A DNA stretch of 64,000 bases from Acholeplasma equirhinis (GTDB lineage Bacteria > Bacillota_I > Bacilli_A > Acholeplasmatales > Acholeplasmataceae), in the NCBI RefSeq assembly GCF_017052655.1, contig NZ_JAFIDC010000001.1, forward strand, positions 806,001 through 870,000. Reading direction: 5' to 3'. The notes beneath the pieces were generated by a model that was not told the origin of the DNA, searched no databases, and saw only the letters and a list, made by a program, of their open reading frames with translations. This document shows, piece by piece, positions 18,462-50,976 of the stretch; within the stretch, counting starts at the first letter, position 1; each line of letters begins with the position of its first letter. A program made the position numbers and the translations under genes.

Positions 18462-18730
18462 TATTCGATTGAGCCTAACCCTTCAGTTACCATGAAATCT
18501 GTAAGTCCTGCGATGGCTTCTTTTTCATCTGGACCAACCGCTGTAATTTCTACGATTTCACCATGGTAAATACCTAAGCTCATGACTCCCATGATACTTT
18601 TTAAATTAACTGTACGGTTAAATGCTGTTAAGCTGACTTCTGATTCATATGACATAGCTTGATTCACAAGACGTGTCGCAGGTCTTGCATGTAAACCATA
18701 TTCTGAAACAATTTTGAACTTCTGCTTCAT
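18461..18730 (-). CDS. ptsH: Phosphocarrier protein HPr
   Basis: HPr carries phosphate from Enzyme I to sugar-specific EIIA in the phosphotransferase system. In this 89-residue cytosolic protein the active-site His14 sits in GLHARPAT and the regulatory Ser45 in NLKSIMGVMSLG, so both catalytic and HPr-kinase-type regulation should be possible. It overlaps the EIIB-like gene by four bases upstream and the DUF368 gene by one base downstream. Enzyme I is not adjacent, unlike the common ptsH-ptsI arrangement. Confidence 0.95.
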   Translation of the reverse strand: MKQKFKIVSEYGLHARPATRLVNQAMSYESEVSLTAFNRTVNLKSIMGVMSLGIYHGEIVEITAVGPDEKEAIAGLTDFMVTEGLGSIE

Positions 18731-19086
18731 TTAGTTACCTCACTTTTTAGTTGATCAAGTTTTGTTTTAATGGTTACGGGATTATCCTTGATAAGGAGTT
18801 TCAACTCTTTACCACTTAACATACCGATAATGCCCATAGACTTTAGTAGAGTTTGTGATACTAACTTAGGATTTGACAAAGTTACTTTAAGTCTTTTATT
18901 ATCAAGACTTGTTTGCACAATATTACTTGCACCACCTAAAGCTTCTAGTAACGTAGAAACATCAATTGTTGGTTGAGCTTTTTCTTTATTCTGTTTTGTT
19001 TTTAAAACATAAAAAACAATAAATGCTGCCCCAAGCAGTACAACGATAGATGCGATAATTAAAGTGTAGATTTGTCCTTCGGTCAT
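18727..19086 (-). CDS. Membrane-anchored EIIB-like domain protein lacking the active cysteine
   Basis: The 119-residue protein has one N-terminal membrane helix (about residues 7-28) and a C-terminal domain resembling the glucose-family PTS IIB fold: LLEALGGASNIV…RLKVTLSNPKLV…GIIGMLSGKELKLL. In true IIB domains the phosphorylated Cys precedes the TRLRV segment; aligned by eye, this position is Asp here, so it cannot act as a normal phosphocarrier. Its direct coupling to ptsH (ATGA overlap) suggests a sensory or binding role next to HPr. The resemblance is moderate. Confidence 0.65.
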   Translation of the reverse strand: MTEGQIYTLIIASIVVLLGAAFIVFYVLKTKQNKEKAQPTIDVSTLLEALGGASNIVQTSLDNKRLKVTLSNPKLVSQTLLKSMGIIGMLSGKELKLLIKDNPVTIKTKLDQLKSEVTK

Positions 19087-19108
19087 GGTATCACGTCCCC
19101 TTGTTTTT

Positions 19109-39953: not shown

Positions 39954-41318
39954 TTAAAAATTCATTAGACAATCGTCAATTTGTTGATAGAGTGATTTTA
40001 ATGTGCCATTATTCTTAATGACATAATCGGAAAGTTTTTCTTTTTTAGTTAAACTTATTTGAGATTTGATGGAAATTATTGCATCTTCTTCTGATACATG
40101 ATCTCTTGCCATAAGTCTTTCAATTTGTAGCTTTTTGGTTGTTGTAACCATAAATGAAACATCATATCCTTGATAACCCGTTTCAAATAAGAGTGGAATA
40201 TCTAGGAAGATAAGATGATCAAAGTTTTCTTTTTTAAATGTTTCAATCATCTCAAACACTTTTGGATGAATCATTTTTTCTAACATTTTACGTTTTGATT
40301 TATTTTCAAATATTAGATTTCTTAAAAGAGCCTTATTTAGTGTACCATCTTCATTCAAAGTATTAAACTTTTTACCAACCATTTTTGAAAATTTCGGATC
40401 TTGATAGAGTGTTTTAACTGTTTGATCACTATCAAAGACTTTAAATCCTTTTTTAAGTAAGTATTTAGTAGCTTCACTCTTACCAGTTGCAATACCACCA
40501 GTAATTGCGATCACTTTAGATTTTTGACATGTAGGGCAATAATATGTACCTCTACCTTTTAACATAACCTTTTCAATCGGTGTACCACATCTTTGACAAG
40601 GTTCACCTTTTTTTCCATGCACCATAAGATGTTCTTGGAAACTACCTTTATGACCTAAAGTCTCAAAGGTATCAATTGTTGACCCACCAAGTAAGACCGC
40701 TTGATCCATGACTTCTTTTGTTATCTTTAGAATCTCATCGATTTCTCTCTGGTCAAGAAGGAATCCTCTCTTGGATGGATGAATTTTTGCACGATATAAT
40801 ATTTCATTGGCATAGATATTACCAATACCACCAATAATTTGTTGATCAAGTAGTATTTCTTTAATTGTTTTTTGACTCTTTTGAATACTTGTAACAATAT
40901 CATTTAATTCTAATTGATTTGGATCTTTAGCGAGTTTTTTATGTCTGAAGAAACTTTCTTCTTCATTTATATCAATCAATTCGAATCGACCAAACTTTCT
41001 GGTGTCATGATAGGAAAGTACTGTGCCATCTGTAAAATAGAATTCAACATGTGTATGTTTTGGATTTCTTGCCTCATTCAGCATGTACTTTCCTTCCATA
41101 CGGAGGTGTGAAATGAGTTTATATTGATCTAAATTAAAGATTAAGTATTTTGCACGACGAGAGATTGAATGAATGGTTTGATTTTGTAGTTTTTCTTCAA
41201 ACGCAAAATCATTAGAGACAATTGGGCGATAGTAAACGACCACTTTATCAATGGTCTTTTTACCGACTTTCTCTTCTAATATTTTTCGGTTTGTTTCAAC
41301 CTCAGGTAACTCTGGCAT
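39954..41318 (-). CDS. mutM-coaE: Fused formamidopyrimidine-DNA glycosylase and dephospho-CoA kinase
   Basis: One 454-residue frame joins two enzymes. Residues 1 to about 268 are MutM/Fpg, which excises oxidised purines: catalytic Pro2-Glu3 (MPELPEVE), GGIGNIYANEIL, and a complete C-terminal zinc finger CQRC…GRGTYYCPTC. Directly after it, residues 270-454 are CoaE, which phosphorylates dephospho-CoA: ITGGIATGKSEAT (P-loop), DSDQTV, and FLDIPLLFETG. There is no linker beyond two or three residues. The start ATG 41318 has AGGGGGA upstream and leaves Pro2 at the N-terminus after Met removal. The genes are neighbours in Bacillus (polA-mutM-…-coaE), which suggests fusion by loss of the boundary. 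Confidence 0.93.
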   Translation of the reverse strand: MPELPEVETNRKILEEKVGKKTIDKVVVYYRPIVSNDFAFEEKLQNQTIHSISRRAKYLIFNLDQYKLISHLRMEGKYMLNEARNPKHTHVEFYFTDGTVLSYHDTRKFGRFELIDINEEESFFRHKKLAKDPNQLELNDIVTSIQKSQKTIKEILLDQQIIGGIGNIYANEILYRAKIHPSKRGFLLDQREIDEILKITKEVMDQAVLLGGSTIDTFETLGHKGSFQEHLMVHGKKGEPCQRCGTPIEKVMLKGRGTYYCPTCQKSKVIAITGGIATGKSEATKYLLKKGFKVFDSDQTVKTLYQDPKFSKMVGKKFNTLNEDGTLNKALLRNLIFENKSKRKMLEKMIHPKVFEMIETFKKENFDHLIFLDIPLLFETGYQGYDVSFMVTTTKKLQIERLMARDHVSEEDAIISIKSQISLTKKEKLSDYVIKNNGTLKSLYQQIDDCLMNF

Positions 41319-41326
41319 AAATCCCC

Positions 41327-45480: not shown

Positions 45481-45794
45481 TATTCATCCAACTTTCTTAA
45501 TTCTTCTAAATATTTTTTATCGTTTGTTTCATCAAACAAATCAAGTAATTCTTTTCTCTTCAAGGATAATTTTAATAATCCTAATTTCTCTTCGAAGTTT
45601 ATTAAATGCTGTTCTGCAATTTTTAATTGGTCATGGATTGCATTTCTTGAGACATGGTATGTTTCTGCAATCTCAAAAAGCGTCAAATCCATATGATAAT
45701 AGTCTACAAAATACTTTTGTTGTTTTTCAGTTAATAAACTACCATAATAACTAAATAATTGATTAAGATATTCGGTCTTCTCTAAATTTTCCAT
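45480..45794 (-). CDS. ylxM: YlxM family SRP-associated HTH protein
   Basis: YlxM is a small helix-turn-helix protein that modulates the SRP pathway and is almost always encoded beside ffh. The 104-residue protein contains LTEKQQKYFVDYYHMDLTLFEIAETYHVSRNAIHDQLK (residues 21-58), the sigma-region-4-like helix-turn-helix. It overlaps both ftsY and ffh by single bases (TAATG). Confidence 0.92.
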   Translation of the reverse strand: MENLEKTEYLNQLFSYYGSLLTEKQQKYFVDYYHMDLTLFEIAETYHVSRNAIHDQLKIAEQHLINFEEKLGLLKLSLKRKELLDLFDETNDKKYLEELRKLDE

Positions 45795-46750
45795 TAAAAG
45801 AATCCTTTAAATAAGTTATAAATATAGTTTTCAATATCAAATGGAACTAAATCATCAATCTTCTCACCAAGTCCAACATATTTAATTGGTAAGTTATATA
45901 GATGGCGAATTGCAAGTACAATACCACCTTTTGCAGTACCATCTAATTTCGTTAAAACAATCCCTGATAATTCAGTAACTTCATTAAAGATGTGTGCTTG
46001 ATTCATACCATTTTGTCCAGTTGTTGCATCAATCACTAAAAGTGTTTCTTGCGGACTATCTGGTAATGTTTTAGAAATAACACGTTTCATTTTTGCAAGT
46101 TCATTCATTAAGTTAACTTTGTTTTGAAGACGACCAGCAGTGTCGACAAGTACTAAATCATAGTTTTCTTTAACTGCAATTGTTAATGCATCAAAAATAA
46201 CACTTGACGGATCTGTACCTGCATCTTTAGCAAAAAATCCTACCCCTGCTCTGTTACTCCATTCACGAAGTTGTTCAATTGCACCTGCTCTAAAGGTGTC
46301 ACCTGCAACCATCATGACTTTTTTACCTTCAGATTTATATTGTTTTGCAAGTTTACCAATTGTTGTTGTTTTACCAACACCATTGACACCAACAAATAAA
46401 TAAACATTTGTTTTTCCATCATCAAAACGAAGTGTCGTATCAACAAATTCATCTTTTAAATAGATCTCAAATAATTTATCAACAATAATTTCTGAAAGTT
46501 GGTGTGGGTCTTCAATACCTTGTTTTTTAATTTCTTCTCTTAATGCATTTGTAAAGTATAATACTGTTTCAACACCAATATCAGCTGCAATTAAAAGGTC
46601 TTCTATTGAGTCAAATAGGTCTTCACTTATTGAGTCAGATTCATCAATTAATTTCTTTAAATTATCAAAAGAGGCTTTACTTTTATGTAAACCCATTTGA
46701 TACTTATCATTTTTTGGTTTCTTTTTAAATAAGTTGGCAAAAAATCCCAT
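45794..46750 (-). CDS. ftsY: Signal recognition particle receptor FtsY
   Basis: FtsY is the membrane-associated SRP receptor GTPase. The 318-residue protein has a very short basic N-terminus (MGFFANLFKKKPKN) instead of a long acidic A domain, then the N domain and G domain with GVNGVGKTTTIGKLA, DTAGRLQNK and TKLDGTAKGG. The amphipathic first residues could bind lipid directly. It is the first gene of ftsY-ylxM-ffh, with an extended -10 promoter at 46778-46786. Confidence 0.96.
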   Translation of the reverse strand: MGFFANLFKKKPKNDKYQMGLHKSKASFDNLKKLIDESDSISEDLFDSIEDLLIAADIGVETVLYFTNALREEIKKQGIEDPHQLSEIIVDKLFEIYLKDEFVDTTLRFDDGKTNVYLFVGVNGVGKTTTIGKLAKQYKSEGKKVMMVAGDTFRAGAIEQLREWSNRAGVGFFAKDAGTDPSSVIFDALTIAVKENYDLVLVDTAGRLQNKVNLMNELAKMKRVISKTLPDSPQETLLVIDATTGQNGMNQAHIFNEVTELSGIVLTKLDGTAKGGIVLAIRHLYNLPIKYVGLGEKIDDLVPFDIENYIYNLFKGFF

Positions 46751-47416: not shown

Positions 47417-48187
47417 TTAACCGTTCTTTAAATTAAGTTTTTTACTTATGTAAAACTTTGTTACAAAGAATGCTGCAATACCTAAACCAACTGTAAATAT
47501 AAAATTTATAACAATAATTGGCAGCACAGCATCAACCACTAATGTTTGATCGTTTGAAAAAATATTTGGATTAATTAAATATGCAATACCTAAATTAATC
47601 ATACTAAGTAATTGATTGATTGCATAATAAATCATAAAGAAAACAAATACATTTAACCATTCTTTTTGGTTAAAACTAAATTCATATGAGAGTGCTGCGT
47701 AAAATATCATCAGAGAAATCAAGGTAGAGCATAAAGCTACTAAAACACCATATACCATCATATTAAATGAACTTGGGTCTAAATCTTTCATCATCATTAA
47801 GTCATTCCAATTTAAGACACCAATTAAGAAAAACAACAATATTGCTAGTACTGCTGCAATTAAAACTGCAACAACACCAGCTAAATACTTAGCTAAGATA
47901 ATATGTGTTTTACTGATAGGAAGTGTATGTGTAAAATAACCTTCATCTTTTAATACACTTAAATAAAATCTTCTTAAGACTAAGAAAAATGCATAAAATA
48001 GTGAAACAAGAATACCAACGATACTTAAAATAAAGGTTGTATTATAAATAAAATCAATACCGATATTTGAAGCTTTAACCTCTTTAAAAATAAAGGTTAC
48101 AAGACTAAATAAAATTGACCCCGCTAAAATCCATTTTAATTGATCAAAGTAAAAGAAAAGGTCCCACTTAAATAGTTTTTTCATCAT
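47417..48187 (-). CDS. ABC transporter permease (second exporter)
   Basis: The 256-residue membrane subunit has six hydrophobic segments without a large external domain, as in simple ABC-2 permeases. The preferred start is ATG 48187, with AAGGAGG upstream, lying inside the end of the ATPase gene; the open frame reaches 48214 without a ribosome binding site. The substrate is unknown. It is distinct from the NatB-like permease at 33350. Confidence 0.83.
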   Translation of the reverse strand: MMKKLFKWDLFFYFDQLKWILAGSILFSLVTFIFKEVKASNIGIDFIYNTTFILSIVGILVSLFYAFFLVLRRFYLSVLKDEGYFTHTLPISKTHIILAKYLAGVVAVLIAAVLAILLFFLIGVLNWNDLMMMKDLDPSSFNMMVYGVLVALCSTLISLMIFYAALSYEFSFNQKEWLNVFVFFMIYYAINQLLSMINLGIAYLINPNIFSNDQTLVVDAVLPIIVINFIFTVGLGIAAFFVTKFYISKKLNLKNG

Positions 48188-48875
48188 ATTTAAAGACCTC
48201 CTTAAAGTATTCACCGAGTGTCATCTTGTACTTAGATCGTAACTTTTCACAATCATCATAGTCAATGACTTCACCTTTTCTTAAAAGGATTGCTTGATCT
48301 AAATTAGATTCAATGTCAGCAATTTGATGTGTTGAAAGGATAATTGTTGAACCTTCTTTACGATACTTCTTAATAATCTTCATAATGAAATCGCGACTTG
48401 CAGGATCCATACCATCAAGCGGTTCATCTAGAATATATAAATCAACTTTTCTTGCCATAACAAGTGCTAGATGGACTTTACCCTTTTGTCCTTTAGATAG
48501 ACTATGCAATTTTCTATTTATTGGAATTTCAAATAAATTTAAAATGTGTTTTGCTTCTTCAATTTGAAAATCTGGGAAGAAATCTTGAAACATTTTTAAA
48601 CTATCCGATACCTTTTGATTGTTATCTAAATAACTTCTTTCTGGTAAATAGGCTATATAGTTTTTTGTTTCTATTGATAAATTTTGATCATTAATTTTTA
48701 GAAATCCTGAAGTTGGTTGTATCAGATCATTGATGAGTTTGATGAAAGTTGTTTTACCACTTCCATTTGGCCCTAATAAACCAATGATTTTACCTTTAGG
48801 AATTTCAAGATTAACATTATTTAATACGATTGTATTACCGTACATTTTTGTTAATCCAATACTTTCTATTAGCAT
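48168..48875 (-). CDS. ABC transporter ATP-binding protein (second exporter)
   Basis: The 235-residue ATPase has Walker A GLLGPNGSGKTTF, signature LSKGQKGKVHLA, Walker B LYILDEPLDGMD, and H-loop LSTHQ. It is coupled to the permease gene. The start has an AUAGGGG ribosome binding site complementary to a C-rich motif of the small RNA encoded directly upstream. A -10 TATAAT lies between that RNA terminator and this gene. Confidence 0.9.
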   Translation of the reverse strand: MLIESIGLTKMYGNTIVLNNVNLEIPKGKIIGLLGPNGSGKTTFIKLINDLIQPTSGFLKINDQNLSIETKNYIAYLPERSYLDNNQKVSDSLKMFQDFFPDFQIEEAKHILNLFEIPINRKLHSLSKGQKGKVHLALVMARKVDLYILDEPLDGMDPASRDFIMKIIKKYRKEGSTIILSTHQIADIESNLDQAILLRKGEVIDYDDCEKLRSKYKMTLGEYFKEVFKYDEKTI

Positions 48876-48945: not shown

Positions 48946-49048
48946 AAAAAAAATGGACCCCCTGACTAAAGGCCAGGAGGTCATAAAGGGGATTTGTGTA
49001 CCTGTAGTACACTAATAGGGGATAAGTAGCACCCATTTGATTGGATGC
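48946..49048 (-). ncRNA. Putative C-rich small RNA with own promoter and terminator
   Basis: From the predicted start near 49048 to the T run at 48946-48953, the transcript (about 103 bases) folds into three hairpins: GCAUCCA/UGGGUGC (7 bp), GUGUAC/GUACAC (6 bp), and the terminator GACCUCCUG/CAGGGGGUC followed by eight Us after a short CA. Two copies of AUCCCC (UUAUCCCCUAUU and AAAUCCCCUUUA) lie unpaired on either side of the middle hairpin. This layout is like RsaE/RoxS-type sRNAs that pair with Shine-Dalgarno sequences. There is no SRP-type GGAA loop and no open frame of note. A cis role for the ABC genes downstream is the alternative. Confidence 0.65.
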
Positions 49049-49147: not shown

Positions 49148-50935
49148 TTATTCTGGAATTTGTTCAATGTGACGGCATTTTGGATAACCTGAGCAACCGT
49201 AGAATTGACCATATTTTGATTTTCTTAAGACAAGTTGTTTACCACATAGTGGACAAACCTTTTCAACAGTTTGTGCTTTGACTTTTTCCATCTTTTCATT
49301 TGCTTCATCAAGTAGTGGTATAAAGCTGTCATAAAATGCTTTTAAGAGTTTTCTACCATCAACTTTACCTTCTGCAATTTGGTCAAGTCTTGATTCCATA
49401 CGTGATGTGTATTCGACATCCATAATGTTTTTAAAGAATTTTTCAAGTTCTCTTGCAGTTAAACGACCTTGTTCTGTTGGTTTGAAACGACGTTCAACAA
49501 CTTCAACATAATCGCGTGACTTCAGTGTTTCAATAATCGATGCATATGTAGATGGTCGACCGATTCCTTGTGCCTCTAACTCTTTAATTAAAGATGCTTC
49601 ATTGTATCTTGTTGGAGGTTGTGTGAACTTTTGAATCGCTTCAACATTTAAAGCATCCAACGCTTCGCCTTCTTTCAACTTAGGTAACATCTTATCTTTT
49701 TGTTTATCTTGAGAAACTTTTAGATAACCATCAAAAACTAAGACCGCACCCTCAACTTCGTATAATGCACCACCTGCATTTAAAGTAATTGTTGTTTGTT
49801 CGAATGAAGCAGATGCCATTAAGGACGCCAATGCTCTTTCGTAAATCTTTTTATAGACTTTAAATTCATCTTTCGCAAGATAAGGTTCAATTGATTCCGG
49901 TGTTCTTCTAATATCAGTTGGACGAATCGCTTCATGTGCGTCTTGTGCAGAGTCATTTTTTCTTGTACGATAATGACCTAAATATTGTTTACCATATGTT
50001 TCTTCGATAAATTCATTGGTTGGTCTTACAAACTCTTGAGATAAACGATCTGAATCGGTTCTCATATAGGTAATTAAACCAGTGATTTCACCATTGATTT
50101 CTACACCTTCATAAAGCTTTTGAGCGATTTTCATCACTCTTGATGATGACATATAAAGGCTATTTACCGCTTCTTGTTGGAGTGTTGATGTAATAAATGG
50201 TGCTTTTGGATGACGCTTTGTCTCTTTAACTTCAACTTTTTGAACAGTAAATGGATTTTTAGATACTTTTAAGATTTCATCCGCTTGTTCTTTTGAGATT
50301 CTAGTATCTTTTGGAATTATATAATCTGCTTTAAAACCATCAAATTCAGCATGAATTGTGTAGTATTCTTCAGCAATGAAACTTTCGATTTCAGATTCTA
50401 AGTCACAAATCAATTTTAAAGCAACGCTTTGTACACGTCCAGCTGATTTAGATTTAATTTTATTTTGTAACAGTTTTGATAACTTAAATCCAATGATTCT
50501 ATCTAAGATTCTTCTTGATTCTTGTGAATTCACTAAATCGGTATTAATCGGTCTTGGATGATTCATTGCTTCTAAGATTGCTGGTTTTGTAATTTCTCTA
50601 AAGATGATACGATTACTTTTTGTTAAGTCTAATTTTAAGACTTGTGCAAGATGCCACGCAATTGCTTCCCCTTCACGGTCAGGGTCAGTTGCAAGGAAGA
50701 CTTCTGCATCTTTAGTTTTCTTTAATAGTTCTTTAACGAGTGCGTCTTTACCACGAATCGTCTTATAATTTGGTTCAAAGTTATTCTCAACATCGACACC
50801 AAGTCCATCTTTTCCACTAGTTGCTAGATCTCTAATATGCCCAACGGAAGATAGAACTGTTACTTGGTTTTTAAAATAACTTGCTATCGTCTTTGACTTG
50901 GCTGGCGATTCAACAATGATGACTTGTTTAGACAT
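49148..50935 (-). CDS. topA: DNA topoisomerase I
   Basis: TopA relaxes negative supercoils by single-strand passage. It has the TOPRIM domain (VIIVESPAKSKTIASYF, ATDPDREGEAIAWHL), the catalytic Tyr in GLITYMRTDSDRLS, and a single C-terminal four-Cys zinc finger (CPLCGKQLVLRKSKYGQFYGC then CRH). ATG 50935 with GGGAGG upstream gives 595 residues, shorter than the usual 690-plus because most C-terminal zinc fingers are absent. It has a consensus promoter and stands alone. Confidence 0.95.
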   Translation of the reverse strand: MSKQVIIVESPAKSKTIASYFKNQVTVLSSVGHIRDLATSGKDGLGVDVENNFEPNYKTIRGKDALVKELLKKTKDAEVFLATDPDREGEAIAWHLAQVLKLDLTKSNRIIFREITKPAILEAMNHPRPINTDLVNSQESRRILDRIIGFKLSKLLQNKIKSKSAGRVQSVALKLICDLESEIESFIAEEYYTIHAEFDGFKADYIIPKDTRISKEQADEILKVSKNPFTVQKVEVKETKRHPKAPFITSTLQQEAVNSLYMSSSRVMKIAQKLYEGVEINGEITGLITYMRTDSDRLSQEFVRPTNEFIEETYGKQYLGHYRTRKNDSAQDAHEAIRPTDIRRTPESIEPYLAKDEFKVYKKIYERALASLMASASFEQTTITLNAGGALYEVEGAVLVFDGYLKVSQDKQKDKMLPKLKEGEALDALNVEAIQKFTQPPTRYNEASLIKELEAQGIGRPSTYASIIETLKSRDYVEVVERRFKPTEQGRLTARELEKFFKNIMDVEYTSRMESRLDQIAEGKVDGRKLLKAFYDSFIPLLDEANEKMEKVKAQTVEKVCPLCGKQLVLRKSKYGQFYGCSGYPKCRHIEQIPE

Positions 50936-50976
50936 ACTAAAAACCTCCCTTGTTTTCTTTTGTTTATACCTCATAC

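Follow-up and report, generated by a model that had tools for sequence, protein, structure and literature searches.

Does the gap between topA and an ABC ATPase gene of Acholeplasma equirhinis hold the gene of a regulatory RNA and, if so, on what would this RNA act? An initial annotation of the window, the 64,000-nt stretch of the A. equirhinis genome analysed here, had proposed at this place a new C-rich small RNA (sRNA) that may block Shine-Dalgarno (SD) sequences. To our knowledge, regulatory sRNAs are nearly unknown in mollicutes and their relatives. An RNA family that has strong covariation support, is absent from Rfam and occurs in cultured species gives a concrete starting point for studying how bacteria with few transcription factors control gene expression after transcription.

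A predicted sRNA gene with its own promoter and terminator

The locus has the makings of an independent sRNA gene, in that the sequence predicts transcription from its own promoter and termination at its own intrinsic terminator (Table 1). The promoter TTTACT-17-TATAAT of the initial annotation is present on the minus strand and its boxes are conserved in relatives, the arrangement CTTTACA-spacer-TATAAT/TGATAATAT being kept in 30 aligned loci. No further operator conserved beyond the -35 and -10 boxes is visible in this 30-locus promoter alignment. The predicted start, G49048, lies 6 nt past the -10 box. This spacing was the most frequent one in a study that mapped 607 transcription starts in A. 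laidlawii PG-8A (PMC5138195). From 5' to 3', the predicted RNA consists of GCAUCCAAUCAAAUGGGUGC (hairpin 1), UACUUAUCCCCUAUUA (linker A), GUGUACUACAGGUACAC (hairpin 2), AAAUCCCCUUUAU (linker B) and a terminator made up of GACCUCCUGGCCUUUAGUCAGGGGGUC, CA and UUUUUUUU. Its sequence is present as a single copy in the 1.45-Mb genome of the window (G000).

Table 1. Features of the predicted sRNA gene and its neighbours (window coordinates)
Feature	Position	Strand	Basis
-35 box, TTTACT	49083-49078	minus	sequence; relatives' consensus CTTTACA
-10 box, TATAAT	49060-49055	minus	sequence; conserved; 17-nt spacer from -35
Predicted sRNA transcript, ~103 nt	49048-48946 (G49048 to U48946)	minus	fold and covariance models
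Hairpin 1 (5' end), GCAUCC...GGGUGC	49048-49029	minus	helix 1 covariation
Linker A, UACUUAUCCCCUAUUA, unpaired, C-rich	49028-49013	minus	invariant columns; unpaired probability
Hairpin 2, GUGUAC...GUACAC	49012-48996	minus	helix 2 covariation
Linker B, AAAUCCCCUUUAU, unpaired, C-rich	48995-48983	minus	AUCCCCUU conserved in most homologues
Intrinsic terminator	48982-48946	minus	hairpin 48982-48956 and U8 (48953-48946); helix 3 covariation
topA, upstream neighbour	49148..50974	minus	Pfam Topoisom_bac; synteny
ABC ATPase, downstream neighbour in several genus members only	48168..48875	minus	Pfam ABC_tran
ftsY, downstream neighbour common to the wider class	45794..46750	minus	Pfam SRP54; synteny

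Fold, covariation and the exposed linkers

The minimum-free-energy (MFE) and centroid folds of the 103-nt RNA concur. Both contain three hairpins and leave unpaired the two AUCCCC motifs that flank the middle one, so that these elements, like the eight-T terminator, are present as first described. The MFE of -36.7 kcal/mol compares with a mean of -21.3 +/- 2.7 for shuffled sequences (z = -5.69), and none of 200 shuffles is as stable. G-U pairs, for example a U-G pair in hairpin 1, are consistent with an RNA of minus-strand sequence.

All three helices are supported by comparison with relatives, in which the C-rich motifs are conserved as well. An alignment of 18 sequences on a hand-set structure has 95.8% of its cells paired, with changes on both sides in 16 of the 24 pairs; no shuffle equals the real pairing, and sliding the partners abolishes the signal. 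The corresponding values for an alignment of 31 diverse sequences (A4), which was fitted to a covariance model and hence favours the structure, are 95.4% of cells and 23 of 24 pairs. Its controls comprise 500 shuffles, none of which equals the signal, and slid partners, which yield at most 16 pairs and at most 45% paired. Broken down by helix, A4 has changes on both sides in 7/7 pairs of helix 1 (94.2% of cells paired), in 5/6 pairs of helix 2 (97.8%) and in 11/11 pairs of helix 3, the terminator, while its sequence drifts. The changes in hairpin 1 and in the terminator are evident in the raw sequences too, apart from the model-fitted alignment. Because conservation with compensatory changes extends over dozens of species, the comparative data confirm the 103-base element as a real conserved structured RNA, far beyond chance.

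The linkers follow a different pattern of conservation. Averaged across 46 homologues, linker A is unpaired with a probability of 0.97 and linker B with one of 0.93, and information content is highest in linker A, of which UUAUCCCCUA is the most conserved part of the RNA. Linker A is nearly invariant across homologues and very strongly conserved over several families. The flanks of the two motifs differ, with UUAUCCCCUA in linker A as against AUCCCCUU/AUCCCCUUCC in linker B. Conserved and exposed C-rich linkers of this kind bear the sequence signature of an interaction seed.

Distribution of the RNA family

A blastn search of 150 relatives detected the RNA in all eight genus genomes and, at E < 1e-3, in 36 genomes in total, including one from another family of the order. 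It occurs in most of the window's family, phytoplasma-sized genomes excepted: a group of small genomes (g8; 0.3-0.9 Mb), presumably phytoplasma-like to judge from size and family, yielded no copy by blastn or by either covariance model, R2 or R3. Carriers named by an exact-pattern scan are Acholeplasma laidlawii, A. oculi, A. granularum, A. equifetale and Haploplasma modicum, together with several environmental Acholeplasmataceae. In G003, taken here as A. laidlawii, the RNA occupies C1:352880-352981 on the plus strand.

The two covariance models score 88.4 (R2) and 90.8 bits (R3) at the window's locus. Within the order, R2 matches 49 of 160 genomes. Unexpectedly, it also matches 18 genomes from other orders, in which the plan is alike: a 5' hairpin, ACUUAUCCC[CU]UACAUA, a hairpin, ACAUCCCCUUCC and a terminator. 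R3, rebuilt from the 31 diverse sequences of A4, extends the family to 82 of 395 class genomes and to 43 of the 192 genera, although matches below about 35 bits, few in number, are doubtful; in a phylum-level draw of genomes it has no match outside the class. Matches in Xianfuyuplasma coldseepsis zrk13 (G203) and Hujiaoplasma nucleasis zrk29 (G253), both outside Acholeplasmatales, mean that the family takes in Izemoplasmatales. The "mollicute-type" setting of the initial annotation is, in the narrow sense of mollicutes, too small for the RNA, which reaches Izemoplasmatales and further class families.

Some matches are suspect. Of six weak model matches inspected, four (L087, L088, L291, L300) resemble chance matches, and a second copy in G048 (L083, G048:C2:12500-17500) probably stems from a contaminant contig; G048 is rated 7% contaminated, and L083 is nearly identical to L104, a homologue from another family. 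The other two of the six, L082 and L085, from g11 genomes, are divergent forms with ACUUUCCCCUUUAUAAGUGCA in which the second C-rich motif is not clear, and they may be degenerate members.

Gene neighbourhood and extra copies

In almost every locus of family f1, topA precedes the RNA and points in the same direction. The gene that follows is the ABC ATPase in several genus members and another gene elsewhere; in most of the family, tpx and then ftsY lie downstream. According to blastp, the RNA is preceded by topA and followed by ftsY in eleven loci of families f5, f9 and f16 (L084, L097, L106, L287, L294, L296, L298, L299, L302, L303, L304). The order topA-RNA-ftsY is thus common to at least four class families, with tpx or ABC genes interposed in some. 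These flanks suggest that topA-RNA-ftsY is probably the ancestral arrangement and the ABC operon of the window a later insertion.

Several genomes of f16 carry two or three copies. A serine recombinase gene adjoins copies L100 (by Pfam) and L104 (by similarity), and copy L101 lies near tmRNA. Such neighbours suggest that some copies travel on mobile elements. The RNA has no counterpart in phage records beyond short stretches at the terminator that match by chance, and a search of viral_contigs with FtsY gave no match. Copy L293 also has an adjacent serine recombinase, identified by resemblance only, and the only copy found in G021, a genome of the window's own family, is among the copies with a neighbour of these kinds. 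In three genomes, the second f16 copy (L286, L289, L305) follows a gene whose acidic product, of about 400 aa, is similar among them; this shared location could hint at a paralogue-specific role.

Relation to known RNAs

The RNA matches no Rfam family at threshold and is in this sense new, as had been proposed. Rfam 15 at gathering score gives no match in the whole window, permissive E-values bring up nothing significant at the locus or in two distant homologues, and twenty homologue loci contain only tRNA and tmRNA matches, none of them at the RNA. The papers surveyed, on Acholeplasma sRNAs and mollicute transcript maps, do not mention it in their openly readable text. In the same genus, the uORFC-13-1 motif (PMC8632094) is likewise a structured RNA but occurs only upstream of aroF, and the text of that report contains neither topA nor the new RNA.

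Closer parallels exist in function-oriented terms. RsaE/RoxS (RF01820) of Staphylococcus and Bacillus shares the exposed UCCCC motifs within an autonomous sRNA of about 100 nt; in the new RNA, by contrast, the middle hairpin has a C-rich linker on either side, and the gene is placed between topA and ftsY. The iron-sparing sRNAs IsrR of Staphylococcus and FsrA of Bacillus are likewise built of stem-loops and a terminator and block SD sequences through single-stranded C-rich regions (PMC9410917). However, two of the three C-rich regions of IsrR are in hairpin loops rather than in linkers, the IsrR gene is controlled by Fur, and no Rfam model of this group matches the new RNA. We therefore class it as a new family of an already known kind, the stand-alone, C-rich, SD-targeting sRNA, which would probably act by blocking SD sites.

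Candidate mRNA targets

The individual targets named in the initial annotation are, unlike the gene, not supported. A complement to the RNA, GGGGATTT, is indeed present at 41326-41319 before mutM but is not kept in sister species, the site GGGGAUUU occurring in one of eight genus genomes, that of the window. The proposed match to the ribosome binding site of the ABC ATPase exists as ATAGGGG at 48891-48885 and is lost in sister species, whose sites read AAGGAGG, AAGGGGA or AGGAGG. The UCCCCUU motif does have a complement, AAGGGGA at 19102, but this precedes a 119-aa open reading frame (18727-19086), and the other genomes lack the match, most of them carrying AAGGAA or AAGGGA at the site. The EIIB-like/HPr operon to which it had been assigned was not found: the 119-aa frame matches no Pfam family and is flanked by genes for a VCA0040-like protein and a methyltransferase. 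Since sRNA targets commonly drift from species to species, the lost matches weaken the named targets and not SD targeting as a class.

Pattern searches were also used to look for targets across genomes. Each of the five genomes scanned has plausible SD sites of the AGGGGAU type, with 17-24 occurrences of AGGGGAT-N3-9-ATG per genome vs 2-12 of the reversed pattern; since any SD-like motif would be in excess upstream of start codons, complementarity alone is weak proof. Among the genes behind AGGGGAT sites, an all-vs-all blastp left a single ortholog pair with the site at a real start. It encodes a membrane protein, whose SD keeps GGGGAU in four of eight genus genomes. No well-conserved target emerged from the five-genome pattern scan. 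A search for the 13-nt linker A complement, one mismatch being allowed, retrieved the RNA itself; all other sites were coding or species-specific, and they include a leader common to the close pair G002/G003.

The mutM and coaE sequences form one open frame in the window (39954-41321, minus strand, 455 aa), with Fapy-glycosylase, H2TH, zinc-finger and CoaE domains in Pfam. As a frame of similar length (about 456-470 aa) is found in 8/8 genus genomes, mutM-coaE looks like a conserved gene fusion.

Proposed mode of action and alternatives

We favour, with a probability of about 0.65, a stand-alone sRNA whose C-rich linkers would pair with the SD sites of several mRNAs and so block ribosomes. RNA polymerase would start at G49048 and the RNA would end at its own terminator, with the 5' base locked in hairpin 1, which may protect it from 5'-3' decay. 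UUAUCCCCUA and AUCCCCUU, single-stranded and kept apart by hairpin 2, could then serve as seeds that pair with purine-rich, AGGGGAU-like SD sites of several mRNAs, and this pairing would block ribosome binding, with or without decay of the mRNA. C-rich single-stranded motifs are the usual route of Firmicute sRNAs to G-rich SD sequences, and in AT-rich Firmicutes the exposed C-rich motifs of RoxS and IsrR have been shown to pair with G-rich leaders or SD sequences (PMC5419742, PMC9410917). From this practice and the conserved unpaired linkers we infer SD occlusion in trans, and translational repression by such a route is plausible. Action in trans is also what the neighbourhood argues for, since the downstream gene varies while the RNA stays and extra copies lie elsewhere.

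The same variation (ABC operon, tpx, ftsY or unrelated genes downstream) speaks against a leader or attenuator that would act in cis on the next gene, as do a new TATAAT-like box behind the terminator in many loci and the dominance of the three hairpins, with no alternative anti-terminator fold seen. Although the RNA and its neighbours are co-directional in most loci and the next start codon in f1 is usually close behind the terminator (70 nt in the window), we consider a leader quite improbable. Little probability is likewise left for a diverged member of RsaE/RoxS. Its UCCCC motifs are of the same kind and one distant homologue reaches a sub-threshold RsaE score of 20.1 bits, but the gathering score of 79 bits is not attained in any of 15 RNA-carrying genomes, where the weak matches sit elsewhere, and the window's locus gives no match at all; in the same search, a control genome scored above the cut-off and Bacillus subtilis was detected. 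A fortuitous meeting of promoter-like and terminator-like sequences, which the reading of a single genome could not by itself exclude, is refuted by conservation and covariation over many genera and has virtually no chance of being correct.

CsrB-type decoys titrate protein through GGA motifs, and the C-rich linkers around hairpin 2 might in a comparable way serve as a decoy or scaffold for an RNA-binding protein. The near identity and the spacing of the two motifs, together with the strong conservation of linker A, would suit a fixed protein partner, and the tests run found no conserved mRNA target. We nevertheless judge this reading unlikely: multi-target sRNAs normally have conserved seeds too, the flanks of motifs A and B differ, and we know of no C-rich-binding bacterial regulator of such a sort in these genomes. 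SD occlusion by a stand-alone sRNA could also be drawn more broadly. Rather doubtfully, the RNA might be an ancient general mimic of the 16S anti-Shine-Dalgarno tail, older than the split between Acholeplasmatales, Izemoplasmatales and allied lineages, seated next to topA-ftsY, duplicated and partly mobile, that in wall-less bacteria would control a large number of mRNAs, perhaps independently of Hfq. In the wider class, linker B reads AUCCCCUUCC, which resembles CACCUCCUUUC of this 16S tail.
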